Shown: positions 33,423-50,554 of the stretch, one piece after another
Layout: every line of letters begins with the position of its first letter
How positions within the stretch are numbered: position 1 is the first letter of the stretch
Origin: Bradyrhizobium ottawaense
GTDB lineage: Bacteria > Pseudomonadota > Alphaproteobacteria > Rhizobiales > Xanthobacteraceae
Direction of reading: 5' to 3'
Assembly (NCBI RefSeq): GCF_900099825.1
Contig: NZ_LT629693.1
Coordinates: forward strand, 248,001 to 312,000
Length of the DNA stretch: 64,000 bases
Position numbers and translations under genes: made by a program
The notes under the pieces: generated by a model
The model's database searches: none
What the model was told of the DNA's origin: nothing
The model's input: the letters and a program-made list of their open reading frames with translations, nothing else

Positions 33423-33545
33423 GTCGTCCCGGCCTTGAGCCGGGACCCATAACCACAAATGTCGGTTGTTGAAAAAAGCCGTCGACCATCCAGCTAGACA
33501 ATCTCGGCCGCGGCGTATGGGTCCCGGCTCAAGGCCGGGACGACG
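33423..33545. repeat. Dispersed palindromic repeat, family A copy 2
   Basis: GTCGTCCCGGCCTTGAGCCG at the left and CTCAAGGCCGGGACGACG at the right form inverted ends; the middle has GTCGACCATCCAGCTAGAC. Homologous to 26592-26715. Followed directly by ATTTGCCCGTCGGG, the motif also found in the repeat at 27139-27215. Confidence 0.92.
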
Positions 33546-35158: not shown

Positions 35159-35641
35159 TCAGTCCTGCTCGCCGGCGATCTCGCCGACGCGTGGGACAAC
35201 CTTCTTCCAGCCACCGCTCATGTTCTTGTAGGCGCCGTCGTTTCGCGGCAGCACGAAGCCGGAATGGACCATGCGAAGGCGCGTCCCCCGTTCGATCCGT
35301 TGGAGTGTCCAGGTCACGACGGTGTCGAGCAGCGAACCGTAGCCGACGTTGGACTCGTGCCCACCCTTCCAGGAGTAGACCAGGCGCTGGTGCGGAACGG
35401 CTTCGAGCACCTGGCAACGAATGACGCCATCCCAGGCGCCGGCCGCGGTGGTCTGATAGGTAAACTGCTTGCCCTGCACCGCTTCGAATCCGGTCGGCGT
35501 CATCTGCAGCCAGCGGCCGATCAGTTCGCCGGTCGTCAGCGCTTTCCAGATCGCCTCCGGCGCATGTGGGAGGTTCGCCTCGACCACGATCTCTTGAGCG
35601 GCGGACTCTTGGGTGTCGGACTGCAACGCGACGTTATTCAT
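35159..35641 (-). CDS. SRPBCC (AHSA1-like) domain protein
   Basis: 160 residues. The START/Bet v1-like pocket fold is indicated by QEIVVEANLPHAPEAIWKAL, LIGRWLQMTPTGFEAVQGKQ, VPHQRLVYSWKGG and TVVTWTLQRIERGTRLRMVH. Genes of this type very commonly sit with an ArsR regulator, as here: the ATG overlaps the ArsR stop by four bases. Probably binds a small hydrophobic ligand; function unknown. Confidence 0.9.
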   Translation of the reverse strand: MNNVALQSDTQESAAQEIVVEANLPHAPEAIWKALTTGELIGRWLQMTPTGFEAVQGKQFTYQTTAAGAWDGVIRCQVLEAVPHQRLVYSWKGGHESNVGYGSLLDTVVTWTLQRIERGTRLRMVHSGFVLPRNDGAYKNMSGGWKKVVPRVGEIAGEQD

Positions 35642-37364: not shown

Positions 37365-38576
37365 TCACGCCGGCACCGGCGCGGGCGATAGCTTCGGCAC
37401 CGGGCGGAATGTCAGCGCGATGAAGAACGCGCCGAGGCCCATGATCCAGGAGCCGACATAAAGCCAAGTGTAGCTCGCAAAGGTGTCATAGATCAGCCCG
37501 CCGGCCAGCGGACCCATCGCCATGCCGAGGCTGCCGGCCATCGCGGTGCCGCCGATCACGGTGCCCATCATCCGCAGCGGAAAGTTTTCGCGGGCGAGCG
37601 CGGCATAGAGCGGCATGGTGCCGGCATAGATGAAGCCGAACAATGCTGCGACCGCGTAGAACGCCGCGAGCTCGCGCACGAAGACATAACCGAGTGCGCC
37701 GAACGCCTGCGCCAGCAAGCCCAGCACGAGCACGCGCTTGGCGCCGAAGCGATCCCCTAACAGGCCGAAGGCGATGCGGCCTCCCAGCCCGGCAAAACCC
37801 TCCAGGCTGTAAATGGTGACGGCCGCTACCAACGGAATGCCGCAACTGATGGCGTAGCTGACGGTGTGAATGATCGGACCCGAATGGGTGGCGCAGCAGA
37901 AGAAGTTGGTCAGCAGCAGGATGACGAATTGCGGCGAGCGCAGCGCCTGGCCGAGCGTCATCTCCGCCTGTGCCGGATCGTCTGACGGCACGGACGCCGC
38001 ATGCGCAAGCGCCGGCGCGCGGCGCACCAGGAGCGAGACCGGGATCATGATGAGCGCGACGACCAGCGCCACGAGCTGCATCGAGGTGCGCCAGTCATGC
38101 TGCGAGACCAGCCAGGCGGCGAACGGCGCCATCGTCATCGGCGCCATGCCCATGCCGGCCGAGACCAGCGATACGGCAAGGCTGCGATGGGTATCGAACC
38201 AGCCGGTGACGGTCGCCATCATCGGCGCGAAGATCGCCGCACAGGAGACGCCGACCATCAGCCCGAAGATGAACTGAAACGCGGCCAGCGAGGTCGCCAG
38301 GCTAGCGAGCCCGAGGCTCGCGGCCAGCATCACCGAGCCTGATAACACCACCGGCAGCGGCCCGAACCGGTCGGACAAGGTGCCCCAGATCATGCTGGTG
38401 CAGGCCATCGCCAGAAAGCCGATCGTCATGGCGCTGGATACGCCGGTGACGGACCAGCCGGTATCCCGCGCGATCGGCTGCAAGAACACCGGCAGCGAGA
38501 ACATGCCGCCGATCGCGACACAGCCGAGCAAGCCGCCGGCCGCGACGATCACCCAGCGATAGCGAGAGATGGTCAT
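37365..38576 (-). CDS. MFS transporter
   Basis: 403 residues from ATG 38576 (MTISRYRWVIVAAGGLLGCV); the longer frame to 38834 is not supported. Twelve predicted helices; GTLSDRFGPLPVVLSG in loop 2-3 matches the MFS signature GxLaDrxGrrxxl, and the repeat in loop 8-9 is AFGLLGDRFGAKRVLVLG. Resembles the oxalate/formate-monocarboxylate-type MFS subgroup (OFA/MCT-like), but the substrate is unknown. It lies 161 bp downstream of the ECF sigma gene on the same strand and may be under the same control. Confidence 0.88.
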   Translation of the reverse strand: MTISRYRWVIVAAGGLLGCVAIGGMFSLPVFLQPIARDTGWSVTGVSSAMTIGFLAMACTSMIWGTLSDRFGPLPVVLSGSVMLAASLGLASLATSLAAFQFIFGLMVGVSCAAIFAPMMATVTGWFDTHRSLAVSLVSAGMGMAPMTMAPFAAWLVSQHDWRTSMQLVALVVALIMIPVSLLVRRAPALAHAASVPSDDPAQAEMTLGQALRSPQFVILLLTNFFCCATHSGPIIHTVSYAISCGIPLVAAVTIYSLEGFAGLGGRIAFGLLGDRFGAKRVLVLGLLAQAFGALGYVFVRELAAFYAVAALFGFIYAGTMPLYAALARENFPLRMMGTVIGGTAMAGSLGMAMGPLAGGLIYDTFASYTWLYVGSWIMGLGAFFIALTFRPVPKLSPAPVPA

Positions 38577-38737
38577 TCCTGGTCTCCATGCATCGTTCTG
38601 AATGCAAGACGAACGGGATCTGGTGGAACCGACAGGTCGAGGGCCGCGTAGCTCACTTTTTTTGCGGGCGGGCGCCGCTTTGTTTTGTGGGGCGACTTTT
38701 CCGGCCGCAGCGGCGATCGACAACGATTGACCGAATT

Positions 38738-39691
38738 TCAGGCGCGGGGCGCGGCAAGGACCAAATCCGCGCCCTCCAGAATGTAACCCGCATAACGGAA
38801 GTCGCGAATCCGGACAATGCGAGAGTCGCGCCATTCCACCTTCATCAGGTAGCTGGGCTGGGCATCGTCGGCCCGCGCGAAAACCGCCATCACCTCGCCG
38901 CCGTGTCCGCCATCAAGGTATGCCGGGACGAGGTGAAACTCCGGTATTTCCGCGTAAATTGTGAAGAACATACCCACGTCGGACCGCCCCTTGCGATCGG
39001 GATGCGTGGCCTGCGTCAGATGAACATCTTCGGCCAACAGAGCGCGCAAGCCGTCCCAGTCGCGCTGATTGAACAGCGCGGAAAACTGCGCGGAGCCCGC
39101 TGACGCGGGCTTCGCCAGGCGCGGCTTACCTGGCGCTGCGTTGAGCTCCGTCAGTCGGGTCCTGCCACGGCTGAGTGTCGCCTTCACCGAATTGACGCTG
39201 AGGTCGAGAAGTCCGGAGATTTCCTCGAGCGAGTGACCCAGCACATCTTTCAGGATCACCGCGCTGCGCTGGGCGATCGGCAGTTGGGTGAAGCGGGAGA
39301 GCGCGGTGGCAACCGCCTCCTGACGCATAAGGGCCTCGGCTGGATCCAATGTCAGGTCGTCCGCAACCTGGACCGCGGCTTCGATCGGTTCGCTCCGTCT
39401 CACGGCTTGGCTCCTGAGGTGATCGAGCGCGCGATTGTGAGCGATCCGAAACAGCCACGGCTTTAGTGGCGTCTCGGGGTCCAGGCCATCGGCGGCGACA
39501 AGCGCGCGGACAAGAACATCCTGCACGATGTCGTCGCCATCGAAGACGGAGCCCGCCAGCCGTGCGCAATAGCGGTGAAGCTCGGGGCGCAGCTCGGCCA
39601 TGACCGCCTGAAGCCGCGCCCGACCGTCAACAGGCGAGATAGACATGTCGGACTTGTCTGCCTTCAATGTGTACTCCTGGGCGTACCTCAT
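38738..39691 (-). CDS. ECF sigma factor with SnoaL-like C-terminal domain
   Basis: 317 residues. Region 2: ELHRYCARLAGSVFDGDDIVQDVLVRAL...PLKPWLFRIAHNRALDHLRSQ. Region 4: LPIAQRSAVILKDVLGHSLEEISGLLDLSVNSVKATLSRGRTRL. From about residue 205 an NTF2/SnoaL-like domain follows (FSALFNQRDWDGLRALLAED, HPDRKGRSDVGMFFTIYAEI), as in ECF41/ECF56-type sigmas, which use this domain instead of an anti-sigma factor. The ATG directly follows the stop of the SDR gene (TGAATG), so translation is coupled; that supports this start. Confidence 0.9.
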   Translation of the reverse strand: MRYAQEYTLKADKSDMSISPVDGRARLQAVMAELRPELHRYCARLAGSVFDGDDIVQDVLVRALVAADGLDPETPLKPWLFRIAHNRALDHLRSQAVRRSEPIEAAVQVADDLTLDPAEALMRQEAVATALSRFTQLPIAQRSAVILKDVLGHSLEEISGLLDLSVNSVKATLSRGRTRLTELNAAPGKPRLAKPASAGSAQFSALFNQRDWDGLRALLAEDVHLTQATHPDRKGRSDVGMFFTIYAEIPEFHLVPAYLDGGHGGEVMAVFARADDAQPSYLMKVEWRDSRIVRIRDFRYAGYILEGADLVLAAPRA

Positions 39692-40450
39692 TCAAACAGC
39701 GGCCCCCTCAAGGATCGAGATGCCGGTGCCCCCCTTGAGGCCGAAGGCCAAGTCGGCCTCATACAAGGGGTTCGTCAACAGCGTGACGACGTACTCGCCG
39801 AATTGGCGCGGCGGCATCGGCGCGCCAAAGCGTGTGAAATATTGTTCGAGCGTGACGTTCGACTTGGCGCTATACGCCGCCGCCGCCGCGTCTCCCACGC
39901 CCGTTCCGGCGATGATCTGGCGCGGAACGACCGTCTGGAAGCGGATGCCGAGCTTGTTCTCCGTCGACACGCCGTTCGCGTAGTTCGCCATCAACCATAG
40001 CATGCGTTTCGCGCCCGCATAGCTGCCCGACAACGGCGAGCCCAACACTGCCGCGCCGCTCGATCCGACCAAGACACGGCTTCCCGGAGGGAGTGGCGTC
40101 GCCAACGCAGCCTGCAGCCAATGGAAGCCGGCCTTGACGTCGGTGTTCCAGGTTTTGCTGAACGTCTCCCATGACAGTTTGTCGAGAGCAGCCATCCTTG
40201 GCGGGGCTCCGGCGTTGAGAACCAGGATCGTCGGCCGCAACTCGGCAAGGATCCGGCCCGCTTCCCCGCGATCGGTGACGTCGGCGGCAATGGTTCCGAC
40301 CCCAAGGCGCCTTGCGACGCTTTCAAGATCGCCGGCGGTGCGCGCGACGACGGTCACCCTGGCTCCGCGGTCGACGAGGGCTTCGACGATACCAAGGCCC
40401 AATCCGCGGCTGCCACCGGTCACGATAGCGGTTTGATTCTGCAAATCCAT
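39692..40450 (-). CDS. SDR family oxidoreductase, coupled to the ECF sigma gene
   Basis: 252 residues from ATG 40450 (MDLQNQTAIVTGGSRGLGLG) with AGGGAG upstream. Cofactor motif TGGSRGLGLGI, NAGAPPR in the NAG position, Ser in VGSSGAAVLG, and YAGAKRM as YxxxK. Asp after the first sheets is replaced by VVARTAG, suggesting NADP(H). Its stop codon abuts the sigma factor ATG. Divergent from the SDR gene at 40622 with the mirrored repeat between them. Confidence 0.9.
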   Translation of the reverse strand: MDLQNQTAIVTGGSRGLGLGIVEALVDRGARVTVVARTAGDLESVARRLGVGTIAADVTDRGEAGRILAELRPTILVLNAGAPPRMAALDKLSWETFSKTWNTDVKAGFHWLQAALATPLPPGSRVLVGSSGAAVLGSPLSGSYAGAKRMLWLMANYANGVSTENKLGIRFQTVVPRQIIAGTGVGDAAAAAYSAKSNVTLEQYFTRFGAPMPPRQFGEYVVTLLTNPLYEADLAFGLKGGTGISILEGAAV

Positions 40451-40478
40451 GATCGCACTCCCTGATCCGTTCTCAGCT

Positions 40479-40566
40479 AAGACGTTTGAGGGTTTCGAAA
40501 AGAGTCGCGGTCGGACCAAAAAAATCGCGCTTGAACGCGACTCTTTTCGCGAACCTCGAACGTCTT
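40479..40566. promoter_or_regulatory. Mirror-image repeat, candidate twin ECF promoters
   Basis: 31-bp arms 40479-40509 and 40536-40566 are inverted with 27 of 31 matches and a 26-bp centre. Reading outward in either direction gives CGCGACTCTTTTCG, a variable part, then AACGTCTT. All four mismatches lie between these two blocks, which is what two copies of a -35/-10 pair (CGACTC, about 16 bp, CGTC) would show. The left copy serves the SDR-sigma operon, the right one the SDR at 40622. Confidence 0.65.
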
Positions 40567-40621
40567 GATTGCAGCTCAAGGCGTGGCGGGCTTGGACAAG
40601 CCCTACAACAAAGGAAGTCCC

Positions 40622-41404
40622 ATGAAACTCACTAAACGTACCGTCCTCATAACCGGCGGTTCCGCAGGCATCGGCCTTGCCTTCGCTCTCAAGTTCGCCG
40701 AACTCGGAAACGAAGTTATCGTGACCGGCCGGCGCCAGCCCGTGCTCGACCAGGTGAAGGCAAAGCACCCAAAGCTCCATACGATCCGGAGTGATGTCGC
40801 GGACTCCGCGCAGATTGCCGCCCTCGCTGCGAGGGTGAAGTCGGATTTCCCCGGGCTCGACGTGCTGGTGAACAACGCCGGCATCAGCCGTTACAGGAAT
40901 CTCAAGGCCTCCACTGCCGACCTCTCCGAACTGATGGTCGAGATGGATGTCAACGTCGGCGGTGTGCTTCGCATGACCTCGGCATTCACTGACATGCTGA
41001 CAGCCAACAAGGGCACCCTGATCAACATTTCCTCAGGCCTCGCCTTTGTGCCGCTGCCGTGCCTGCCCATCTACTGCGCGACCAAGGCCGCGATCCACTC
41101 CTACACCCAGTCACTCCGGTTCCAGTTTGAGGATTCGGGTGTGGAGATCATCGAGATCATGCCGCCCGCGGTGAAGACCGATATGACGGCGGATCTTTCC
41201 GAAGGCGATGGCATCACCCTGATCACGACCGACGAGTTGGTGAAGCTCTCGTTTGCGTCCCTCAGAACCGGTGCCCTCGAAATCCATCCGGGCCAATCCA
41301 GGCAGCTTGCATTGATGCGCCGCGTCGCCCCCGATTTCATCAATCGCCAGCTTTGGAAAGTCTCCAGGAAACTGGTGCCCGTCGAGGTGGGACAACGGGG
41401 ATGA
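40622..41404 (+). CDS. SDR family oxidoreductase (DltE-like)
   Basis: 260 residues from ATG 40622 (MKLTKRTVLITGGSAGIGLA), preceded by AAAGGAAG. TGGSAGIG cofactor site, TGRRQPVLDQVKAKHPKLH with Arg after strand 2 (NADP-type), NNAGISRYRNL, ISSGLAFVPLPCLPIYCATK with Ser and YxxxK. Length and the C-terminal NRQLWKVSRKLVPVEVGQRG fit DltE-like SDRs that reduce or oxidise unknown small carbonyls. Predicted to share the ECF-type promoter of the divergent operon. Confidence 0.9.
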   Translation: MKLTKRTVLITGGSAGIGLAFALKFAELGNEVIVTGRRQPVLDQVKAKHPKLHTIRSDVADSAQIAALAARVKSDFPGLDVLVNNAGISRYRNLKASTADLSELMVEMDVNVGGVLRMTSAFTDMLTANKGTLINISSGLAFVPLPCLPIYCATKAAIHSYTQSLRFQFEDSGVEIIEIMPPAVKTDMTADLSEGDGITLITTDELVKLSFASLRTGALEIHPGQSRQLALMRRVAPDFINRQLWKVSRKLVPVEVGQRG

Positions 41405-41434
41405 CCACGATTGGCCGTTCCTTCGTGACAACGA

Positions 41435-41737
41435 TCACGTCGGTCCCCCGGCAATGGCGCGCAGGATGATCGCGCGCGCCTCTCGGCCTTCCGGCGTCGG
41501 CATCCCCGCATAATTATGCGGCTGGCCCTGTCGCAGATGAAACTCGACCGGCACACCTGCCGCGCGCGCCTTTGCGGCCAGGTCGACGCTGTCGGGATAG
41601 AGAAGATCGAGCGTGCCGGAGAACACGATCATCGGCGCGAGGCCGCGGAAATCGCCGTTCAATGGACTGACATAGGGATGGGTGATATCGAGATCGCCCG
41701 CATAGAAATGCCCTGCTTCTTTGATACCCGGAATATC
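41435..41737 (-). pseudogene. Remnant of an alpha/beta hydrolase (C-terminal part)
   Basis: Reading the minus strand from 41737 gives DIPGIKEAGHFYAGDLDITH, then RGLAPMIVFSGTLDLLYPDS and the catalytic-His side GQPHNYAGMPTPEGREAR. These are the last 100 or so residues of an alpha/beta-hydrolase-3-like protein with the Asp and His of the triad. An in-frame TAG (41738-41740) precedes it and no N-terminal half with the HGG/GxSxG motifs is present, so the gene is truncated. Confidence 0.65.
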
Positions 41738-45419: not shown

Positions 45420-45438
45420 GCCTTGCTCCGAAATCAAC

Positions 45439-45529
45439 CGTCATGCCCGGCCTTGTGCCGGGCATCCACGTCTTTACGGTCGCGGACAAATGAAGACGTG
45501 GATGGCCGGGACGAGCCCGGCCATGACGG
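45439..45529. repeat. Dispersed palindromic repeat, family B copy 2
   Basis: CGTCATGCCCGGCCTTGTGC at the left and GACGAGCCCGGCCATGACGG at the right; inner CATCCACGTCT versus AGACGTGGATG pair. Homologous to 17779-17860. Confidence 0.85.
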
Positions 45530-50092: not shown

Positions 50093-50464
50093 ATGCCGTC
50101 GTCGCACCATGAACCCGCCCACCTCGCCGCGCTCGGGCGGGACTGGATCGCTGCCTGGAACTCGCACGACCTGGAGCGCGTGCTGGCGCTGTATGCCGAA
50201 GATACCGAAATGACCTCGGACCGGATTCCGGCCCTCGGCTTCGATGCGTCAGGCACGGTGCGCGGCAAGCCGACCTTGCGCGCCTACTGGAGCAAGGCGC
50301 TCTCGATGATTCCGAACCTGCATTTCGAGCTGATCGACACCTATGTGAGCCCCGACAGCGTCGTGGTGTTTTACCAGAACGAACGGGGCAAGAAGATCTG
50401 CGAGTATTTGCGGCTCGATGCCGAGGGGAAGATCCGGCAGGGTTCGGCGAACCATTTGGTGTAG
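50093..50464 (+). CDS. Nuclear transport factor 2 family (SnoaL-like) protein
   Basis: 123 residues from ATG 50093 (MPSSHHEPAHLAALGRDWIA), with GGAGG six bases upstream, better than ATG 50081. Cone-fold features: WIAAWNSHDLERVLALYAED at the N terminus, GKPTLRAYWSKALSMIPNLH, VVFYQNERGKKICEYLRLDA. Ligand pocket protein or small isomerase-like enzyme; function unknown. A perfect palindrome lies upstream and a repeat directly after it. Confidence 0.85.
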   Translation: MPSSHHEPAHLAALGRDWIAAWNSHDLERVLALYAEDTEMTSDRIPALGFDASGTVRGKPTLRAYWSKALSMIPNLHFELIDTYVSPDSVVVFYQNERGKKICEYLRLDAEGKIRQGSANHLV

Positions 50465-50465
50465 C

Positions 50466-50547
50466 CGTCATTCCGGGGCGCGTCGAAGACGCGAACCCGG
50501 AATCTCGAACTTCCGGGTTCGATGCTTCGCATCGCCCCGGAACGACG
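50466..50547. repeat. Dispersed palindromic repeat, family C copy 1
   Basis: CGTCATTCCGGGGCGCGTCG at the left, CGCATCGCCCCGGAACGACG at the right, with an inner hairpin CCCGGAATCTCG-aac-TTCCGGG. Homologous to 63008-63089. Confidence 0.9.
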
Positions 50548-50554
50548 GCGATAC

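Follow-up and report, generated by a model that had tools for sequence, protein, structure and literature searches.

Back-to-back candidate promoters of a SnoaL-tailed ECF sigma factor between divergent dehydrogenase genes of Bradyrhizobium ottawaense

Genes and inverted repeat at the locus

The stretch of DNA analyzed here (the window) comprises 64,000 nucleotides of Bradyrhizobium ottawaense (RefSeq assembly GCF_900099825.1, contig NZ_LT629693.1, positions 248,001 to 312,000). Its element of interest is a long inverted repeat in a 171-bp intergenic region between two divergent genes for short-chain dehydrogenase/reductase (SDR) proteins. The left SDR gene (LSDR) is the first gene of an operon with an extracytoplasmic function (ECF) sigma factor gene, while the right SDR gene (RSDR) is read in the opposite direction (Table 1). 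A preliminary description of this DNA suggested that the adjacent sigma factor may read both arms of the repeat, each with a -35/-10 pattern, and thereby control itself as well as the divergent partner; the comparative evidence presented below supports this part of the proposal.

The sigma protein matches the Pfam models for sigma-70 regions 2 (PF04542, 58.2 bits) and 4 (PF08281, 47.1 bits), the combination that marks an ECF sigma factor, and no region 3 match is present in the Pfam match list. Its C-terminal tail matches SnoaL_2 (PF12680) with 31.8 bits against a cut-off of 27. The AlphaFold model has a mean predicted local distance difference test score (pLDDT) of 83.3, and its best PDB matches in Foldseek are SigG1 and SigJ. 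If the first ATG is used, the start codon of the sigma gene stands immediately after the LSDR stop codon; alternative internal starts are TTG 39668 and ATG 39646. The true start is unsure because relatives align from differing residues: those with 53-61% identity only from residue 19-35, the orthologue in genome G234 from residue 1 and that in G309 from residue 14.

The arms of the repeat (40479-40512 and 40533-40566) are each 34 nt in length, 85% complementary and separated by a 20-nt gap. The pairing reported previously, with 31-bp arms matching at 27 of 31 positions, is borne out by a shuffle test: 400 dinucleotide-preserving shuffles of the intergenic region gave best pairings of 15 to 22. 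The inverted repeat is thus real and far above chance. As the window contains seven further inverted repeats (at least 24 nt, within 200 bp), a repeat alone is uninformative, and it is the position and content of this one that are informative. Alignment of the arms likewise confirmed that all four mismatches fall between the conserved blocks named in the preliminary description, an arrangement with a chance probability of 0.004 for blocks that were defined post hoc.

Table 1. Features of the sigma factor locus (coordinates of the window)
Feature	Position	Strand	Remarks
MFS (major facilitator superfamily) transporter	37365..38576	-	PF07690; downstream of sigma, same strand
ECF sigma factor with SnoaL_2 (NTF2/ketosteroid-isomerase-like) tail	38738..39691	-	Pfam sigma r2, r4_2, SnoaL_2
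LSDR, left SDR oxidoreductase	39692..40450	-	PF00106; first gene of sigma operon
Left promoter (predicted), 33-nt site	40475..40507	-	-35 CGACTC 40507-40502, -10 CGTC 40484-40481
Spacer between -35 hexamers, 30 bp	40508..40537		Contains A tract kept in G234
Right promoter (predicted), 33-nt site	40538..40570	+	-35 CGACTC 40538-40543, -10 CGTC 40561-40564
RSDR, right SDR oxidoreductase	40622..41404	+	PF00106

A conserved site that accompanies the sigma factor

Sigma relatives with at least 53% identity were sampled from the best 80 of 554 matches and 30 loci of a second search. There were 24 such loci among the matches listed, a count that takes in the window itself and a few duplicate genomes; locus L024, which lacks an adjacent left SDR gene, was dropped before operon sites were counted, leaving 23. 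In 21 of these, including loci of Rhizobacter, Herbaspirillum, Rhodanobacter and Nevskia, the sequence GACTCYTT-N14-CGTY lies 29-35 bp upstream of the LSDR start with constant spacing. The extended motif is YGACTCYTTT followed by CGTC, with 17 nt between GACTC and CGTC. One exception, L010, has CGAATCCTTT..CGTCCT near the usual position of the site. A position weight matrix (PWM) built from 18 distinct sites, excluding the window, gave scores of 38.0-49.9 for these training sites, 41.6 for the left arm and 39.1 for the right arm, while five simulated 64-kb sequences produced one score of 17 and otherwise scores below 9. Based on the conserved operon motif and these scores, the arms are predicted to be two copies of a -35/-10 element, each facing its own gene. 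The start of transcription from the left copy is expected near 40470-40475.

A looser pattern, CGACTC-N15..18-CGTC, was rejected: it is not enriched in the genome (55 matches, against 85 for the reversed pattern) and has been superseded by the extended motif. A search of relatives for CGACTC-N16-CGTC had been suggested in the preliminary description. Among 118 loci, the looser pattern matched in eight that had themselves been retrieved by it, in the window's copy (L089) and in seven further loci; within these seven, the match of L013 alone lies directly before a left SDR gene. The loose pattern misses most relatives because these have TGACTC, the commoner -35; CGACTC is a variant of the window's subclade and a few others.

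The site and the sigma gene occur together across genomes. Scanning the 8.34-Mb single contig of the window's own genome for the extended motif with up to three mismatches returned four matches (reversed control: none): the two arms, both perfect, and two sequences that have three mismatches and lie within long reading frames. An orthologous sigma (E ≤ 1e-70) is present in 30 of 265 genomes of the genus, the own genome included. A perfect site was found in 28 genomes, namely 27 of the 30 with an orthologue and 1 of the 235 without; in this last genome (G317) the sigma gene is frameshifted. The association has a Fisher probability of 1.8e-32 for related genomes uncorrected for kinship. One-mismatch matches are also scattered among genus genomes without an orthologue, some being the motif of a sister clade (see below). 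At two mismatches the reversed control had matches in 9 of 12 other genomes. Because of such control matches at one or two mismatches, only perfect or nearly perfect sites are informative.

The divergent gene follows the same pattern. RSDR homologues near the sigma gene were found in G234 (95% identity), G309 (81%), G269 (76%) and Herbaspirillum (78%), and together with the window all five loci with an RSDR of at least 76% carry a site before the gene or its apparent operon. For this count, loci around the sigma gene were used and RSDR copies elsewhere were sought among 149 relatives. In Herbaspirillum a whole-genome search located a perfect site before a four-gene run containing RSDR; this site had been part of neither the first locus nor the PWM training sites, and its later discovery matched expectation. 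By comparison, no site scoring at least 8 was found at the RSDR genes (71-77%) of any of the four genomes without an orthologous sigma (G004, G037, G061 and G073), in loci reaching approximately 1.5 kb to either side.

The -35 also varies with the sigma protein itself. In a tree of all 43 distinct proteins of what we call clade A and 25 of 80 sister-clade rows, for which the tree program warned of long branches, a branch with 100/99 support sets clade A apart from the rest. An LSDR homologue (at least 55% identity) is present in 42 of 43 clade A loci, compared with 1 of 80 sister-clade loci. In the sister clade, CGMATCCTTT-N13-CGTC occurs up to 2.2 kb upstream of the sigma gene in 62 of 80 loci, and the fourth base, for which the pattern permitted A or C, is A in all 62. 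Under the identical pattern this base is C in 39 of 40 clade A sites, L010 being the exception. Residues 172-174, in the helix of sigma region 4.2, are HLA in 39 of 43 clade A proteins, with TGACTC at 34 of their 36 sites and CGACTC at two. The window, G234 and G309 have A/T-L-S, and CGACTC in all three cases. L010 falls inside clade A in the tree, yet its helix (ALH) and its CGAATC are both of the sister type. In the sister clade itself the CGNATC type persists where residue 174 is V, N, G or S, except in one ALV member that lacks a site. As far as sequences go, this comparison shows the -35 of the predicted promoters changing jointly with the region 4.2 helix.

The mirror symmetry of the arms is less constant than the site. 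In G234, the closest orthologue found (sigma 92% identical), the divergent gene order is kept, with 148 bp between the -35 hexamers as opposed to 30 bp in the window. Over 29 positions the two arms differ at 8 in G234 and at 4 in the window; between the two genomes the left arms differ at 4 and the right arms at 3, so the window's left arm is as distant from its G234 orthologue as from its own partner. Six of the eight differences in G234 fall in the 13-nt spacer. The even spread of mismatches in relatives that had been named as evidence against the promoter proposal was thus not seen in G234, the sole relative tested. Other layouts include a tandem order in G309 (site-RSDR-site-LSDR-sigma) and divergent sites approximately 155 bp apart in G269 and L025, the second site of L025 facing a DUF899 gene. 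In view of these layouts, the palindrome is best read as a by-product of back-to-back promoters; its symmetry and 30-bp closeness are probably not required, and represent one layout among several. The idea of a "single symmetrical promoter" is not supported, as in G234 and G309 the arms behave like separate promoters accompanying their own genes.

Relation to characterized SnoaL-tailed sigma groups

The preliminary description compared the site with that of ECF41, the group containing Ecf41 of B. licheniformis and R. sphaeroides, RpoE9 of S. meliloti and SigJ of M. tuberculosis, which appears to work in a similar way. PMC3426412 and PMC6180224 describe ECF41 as a gene for a carboxymuconolactone decarboxylase, oxidoreductase or epimerase (COE) together with a sigma factor that has a single local target, and state that in divergent loci the motif often precedes both genes. 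An SDR oxidoreductase homologue is present in 42 of 43 clade A loci and might correspond to the COE gene. The window sigma resembles ECF41 in its SnoaL_2 extension and in a -10 of CGTC: the ECF41 spacer of 16 ± 1 bp corresponds to the 17 nt between GACTC and CGTC in both arms, allowing for a slight difference in counting, as the ECF41 -35 is given as 7 bases. In contrast, the ECF41 -35 is TGTCACA, while both window sites and 39 of 40 clade A sites have YGACTC (TGTCACA itself was not sought as a second site). The ECF41 signature motif NPDKL and the WLPE of its WLPEP linker motif are absent from all 43 clade A and all 80 sister-clade proteins, and the NCBIfam SigJ model scores 80.9 bits on the window sigma against a cut-off of 271. 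The earlier comparison stands for the -10, but the -35 and the missing signature motifs place the window sigma outside ECF41.

The window sigma is also below the cut-offs of the NCBIfam models PRK08241 (131.7 versus 240) and TIGR02960 (104.2 versus 264.75), which we take to be SigG-type models linked to ECF56. Foldseek and a PDB sequence search both place ECF56 SigG1 of Streptomyces tsukubaensis (7qh5) first, and the SnoaL_2 tail is common to the two proteins. According to PMC7730460, NPDKL is missing from ECF56 as it is from the window sigma, and the gene downstream of the sigma gene in S. tsukubaensis encodes an anti-sigma factor, whereas here it encodes an MFS transporter. A further named SnoaL group, ECF294, is exemplified by a protein from Herbaspirillum hiltneri in a table of PMC8999054. 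It has a SnoaL-like tail, and another Herbaspirillum species possesses a clade A orthologue (L014). Membership of the window sigma in ECF294 is plausible.

Little is known of SnoaL-tailed sigma factors that do not belong to ECF41. The regulatory functions of such groups are still to be elucidated according to PMC8999054, and the authors of PMC7730460 describe their study as, so far as they know, the earliest to address what such a factor does physiologically. No naming of a -35 of YGACTC for a SnoaL-tailed sigma was found in the literature listings searched, which did not cover the main ECF re-classification paper. The review PMC8103513 mentions a method that predicted the regulons controlled by nearly 70% of known ECFs, so a prediction of this motif may exist already.

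Interpretation and minor features

The motif, its fixed operon position, its co-occurrence with the sigma gene, the presence or absence of a site at RSDR and the parallel variation of the -35 with region 4.2 all point to the arms being two complete, separate promoters that lie back to back, belong to the adjacent ECF sigma factor and serve both self-control and control of RSDR. We assign this reading a probability of roughly 0.88; self-control of the sigma factor with co-control of the divergent SDR is well supported at the level of comparative sequence evidence. We infer that RNA polymerase carrying the adjacent sigma starts at the arms: it would read the left promoter into LSDR and the sigma gene, giving positive self-control, and the right promoter into RSDR. 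The NTF2-like tail may gate the sigma factor on binding a small molecule that is a substrate of both dehydrogenases.

Several observations weigh against this reading. At L016 the site precedes an upstream NmrA-type gene in the same direction and not LSDR, and L024 (Peristeroidobacter) has neither a site nor an adjacent LSDR; the L024 genome holds a second sigma (55% identity) behind a left SDR gene, with a site at two mismatches (PWM 37.9). G206, G231 and G232 have a sigma orthologue and only an imperfect site, at the operon, and at one mismatch the genus scan gave 12 matches in the reversed control. The RSDR site of G309 (19.3) and the RSDR-operon site of G269 (24.5) score weakly, and G053 has the sigma while its RSDR-like gene (42%) shows no site scoring at least 8 within the range given above. 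With regard to the -35, 4 of 43 clade A loci have no site under the pattern applied to both clades, the contrast with the sister clade could partly reflect shared ancestry, and L010, the sole independent case of covariation, sits on a long branch flagged as unsure by the tree program. No site under that pattern was found for any of the nine sister-clade ALQ sigmas, which, together with the members having V, N, G or S at residue 174, is evidence against a one-residue rule.

With its 34-nt inverted arms between divergent genes, the palindrome has the classic look of an operator and might instead bind a dimeric regulator of the TetR, MarR or LysR type. We regard this as the least probable alternative of all, as most relatives have a single non-palindromic copy at the promoter position, the site tracks both the sigma gene across the 265 genomes and the sigma helix, and a scan of 38500-41500 for sigma-70 consensus promoters, which covered no other promoter types, found none that such a regulator could act upon. 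That another sigma factor, such as a paralogue or the general stress sigma, reads the arms is only slightly less improbable. The own genome does contain 13 matches to the sigma protein (E ≤ 0.001, self included), among them one paralogue at 40% identity. However, the near absence of perfect sites from genus genomes without the adjacent orthologue argues against this, as does the fact that the sister clade accompanies a different -35 (CGMATCC) and that none of the 39 of 149 relatives whose best match is of the sister type (1e-55 to 1e-64) has a perfect site.

The symmetry could itself be functional, with two polymerases or sigma factors meeting on one element and firing in a coupled or mutually exclusive manner. 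At 30 bp the -35 hexamers may be close enough for holoenzyme contact. In the closest orthologous locus, however, 148 bp separate them and the arms differ at 8 of 29 positions, which, along with the tandem order of G309, makes this improbable, although an interference peculiar to this strain is conceivable. An extension of the promoter reading appears doubtful, although less so than the foregoing: a one-protein metabolite switch in which, in this strain, the promoters also influence each other at 30 bp and not at the 148 bp of G234. Here the ketosteroid-isomerase-like tail would bind a hydrophobic carbonyl compound, freeing the sigma factor for both promoters, and the two dehydrogenases would remove the compound, such that the loop would shut itself off.

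If the arms are separate promoters of the adjacent sigma factor, its putative redox targets are few: the SDR genes and, in relatives, genes for a DUF899 protein and NmrA-type and AHSA1 proteins. The natural helix-promoter series (TGACTC, CGACTC and CGMATCC), with its conserved promoter, makes the specificity of the group directly testable, and these helix-promoter pairs are candidate orthogonal sigma-promoter pairs. The comparison indicates that the locus probably follows a familiar scheme with modifications, its recognition sequence being unusual.

A few minor features were also recorded. The nine ALQ loci (L047, L059, L066, L072, L076, L078, L084, L088 and L106) perhaps represent a third promoter specificity. 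G065 has a second left-SDR locus (L203, 3283-4877) that carries a perfect site overlapped by a further, partial one; the neighbouring sigma has a match of just 41%, spanning residues 42-314. In G205 (L211) and G254 (L220), perfect sites precede genes that by eye are DUF899-like and may be remote targets, as the 8-kb stretches around them contain no sigma match. Between the -35 boxes, an A tract with its flanks (GGACCAARAAAATCG, 40513-40527) is kept in G234 and is a possible UP element site for the left promoter. A perfect short hairpin sequence (GGGCTTGGACAAGCCC, 40588-40603) lies in the expected RSDR leader and is not kept in G234. Homologues of the MFS transporter occur in loci L205, L216, L217, L223, L224 and L233, and the weight-matrix scan found no site in the window for the transporter gene itself. 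The start of the reading frame at 35159-35641 is by eye like that of L234 6704-7168, near the Herbaspirillum sigma locus; the two perhaps reflect a shared neighbourhood with an AHSA1-like product. Finally, three more long inverted repeats with CCGG-rich arms are present at 33423-33544, 45438-45529 and 50459-50554, and these presumably resemble dispersed intergenic palindromes.
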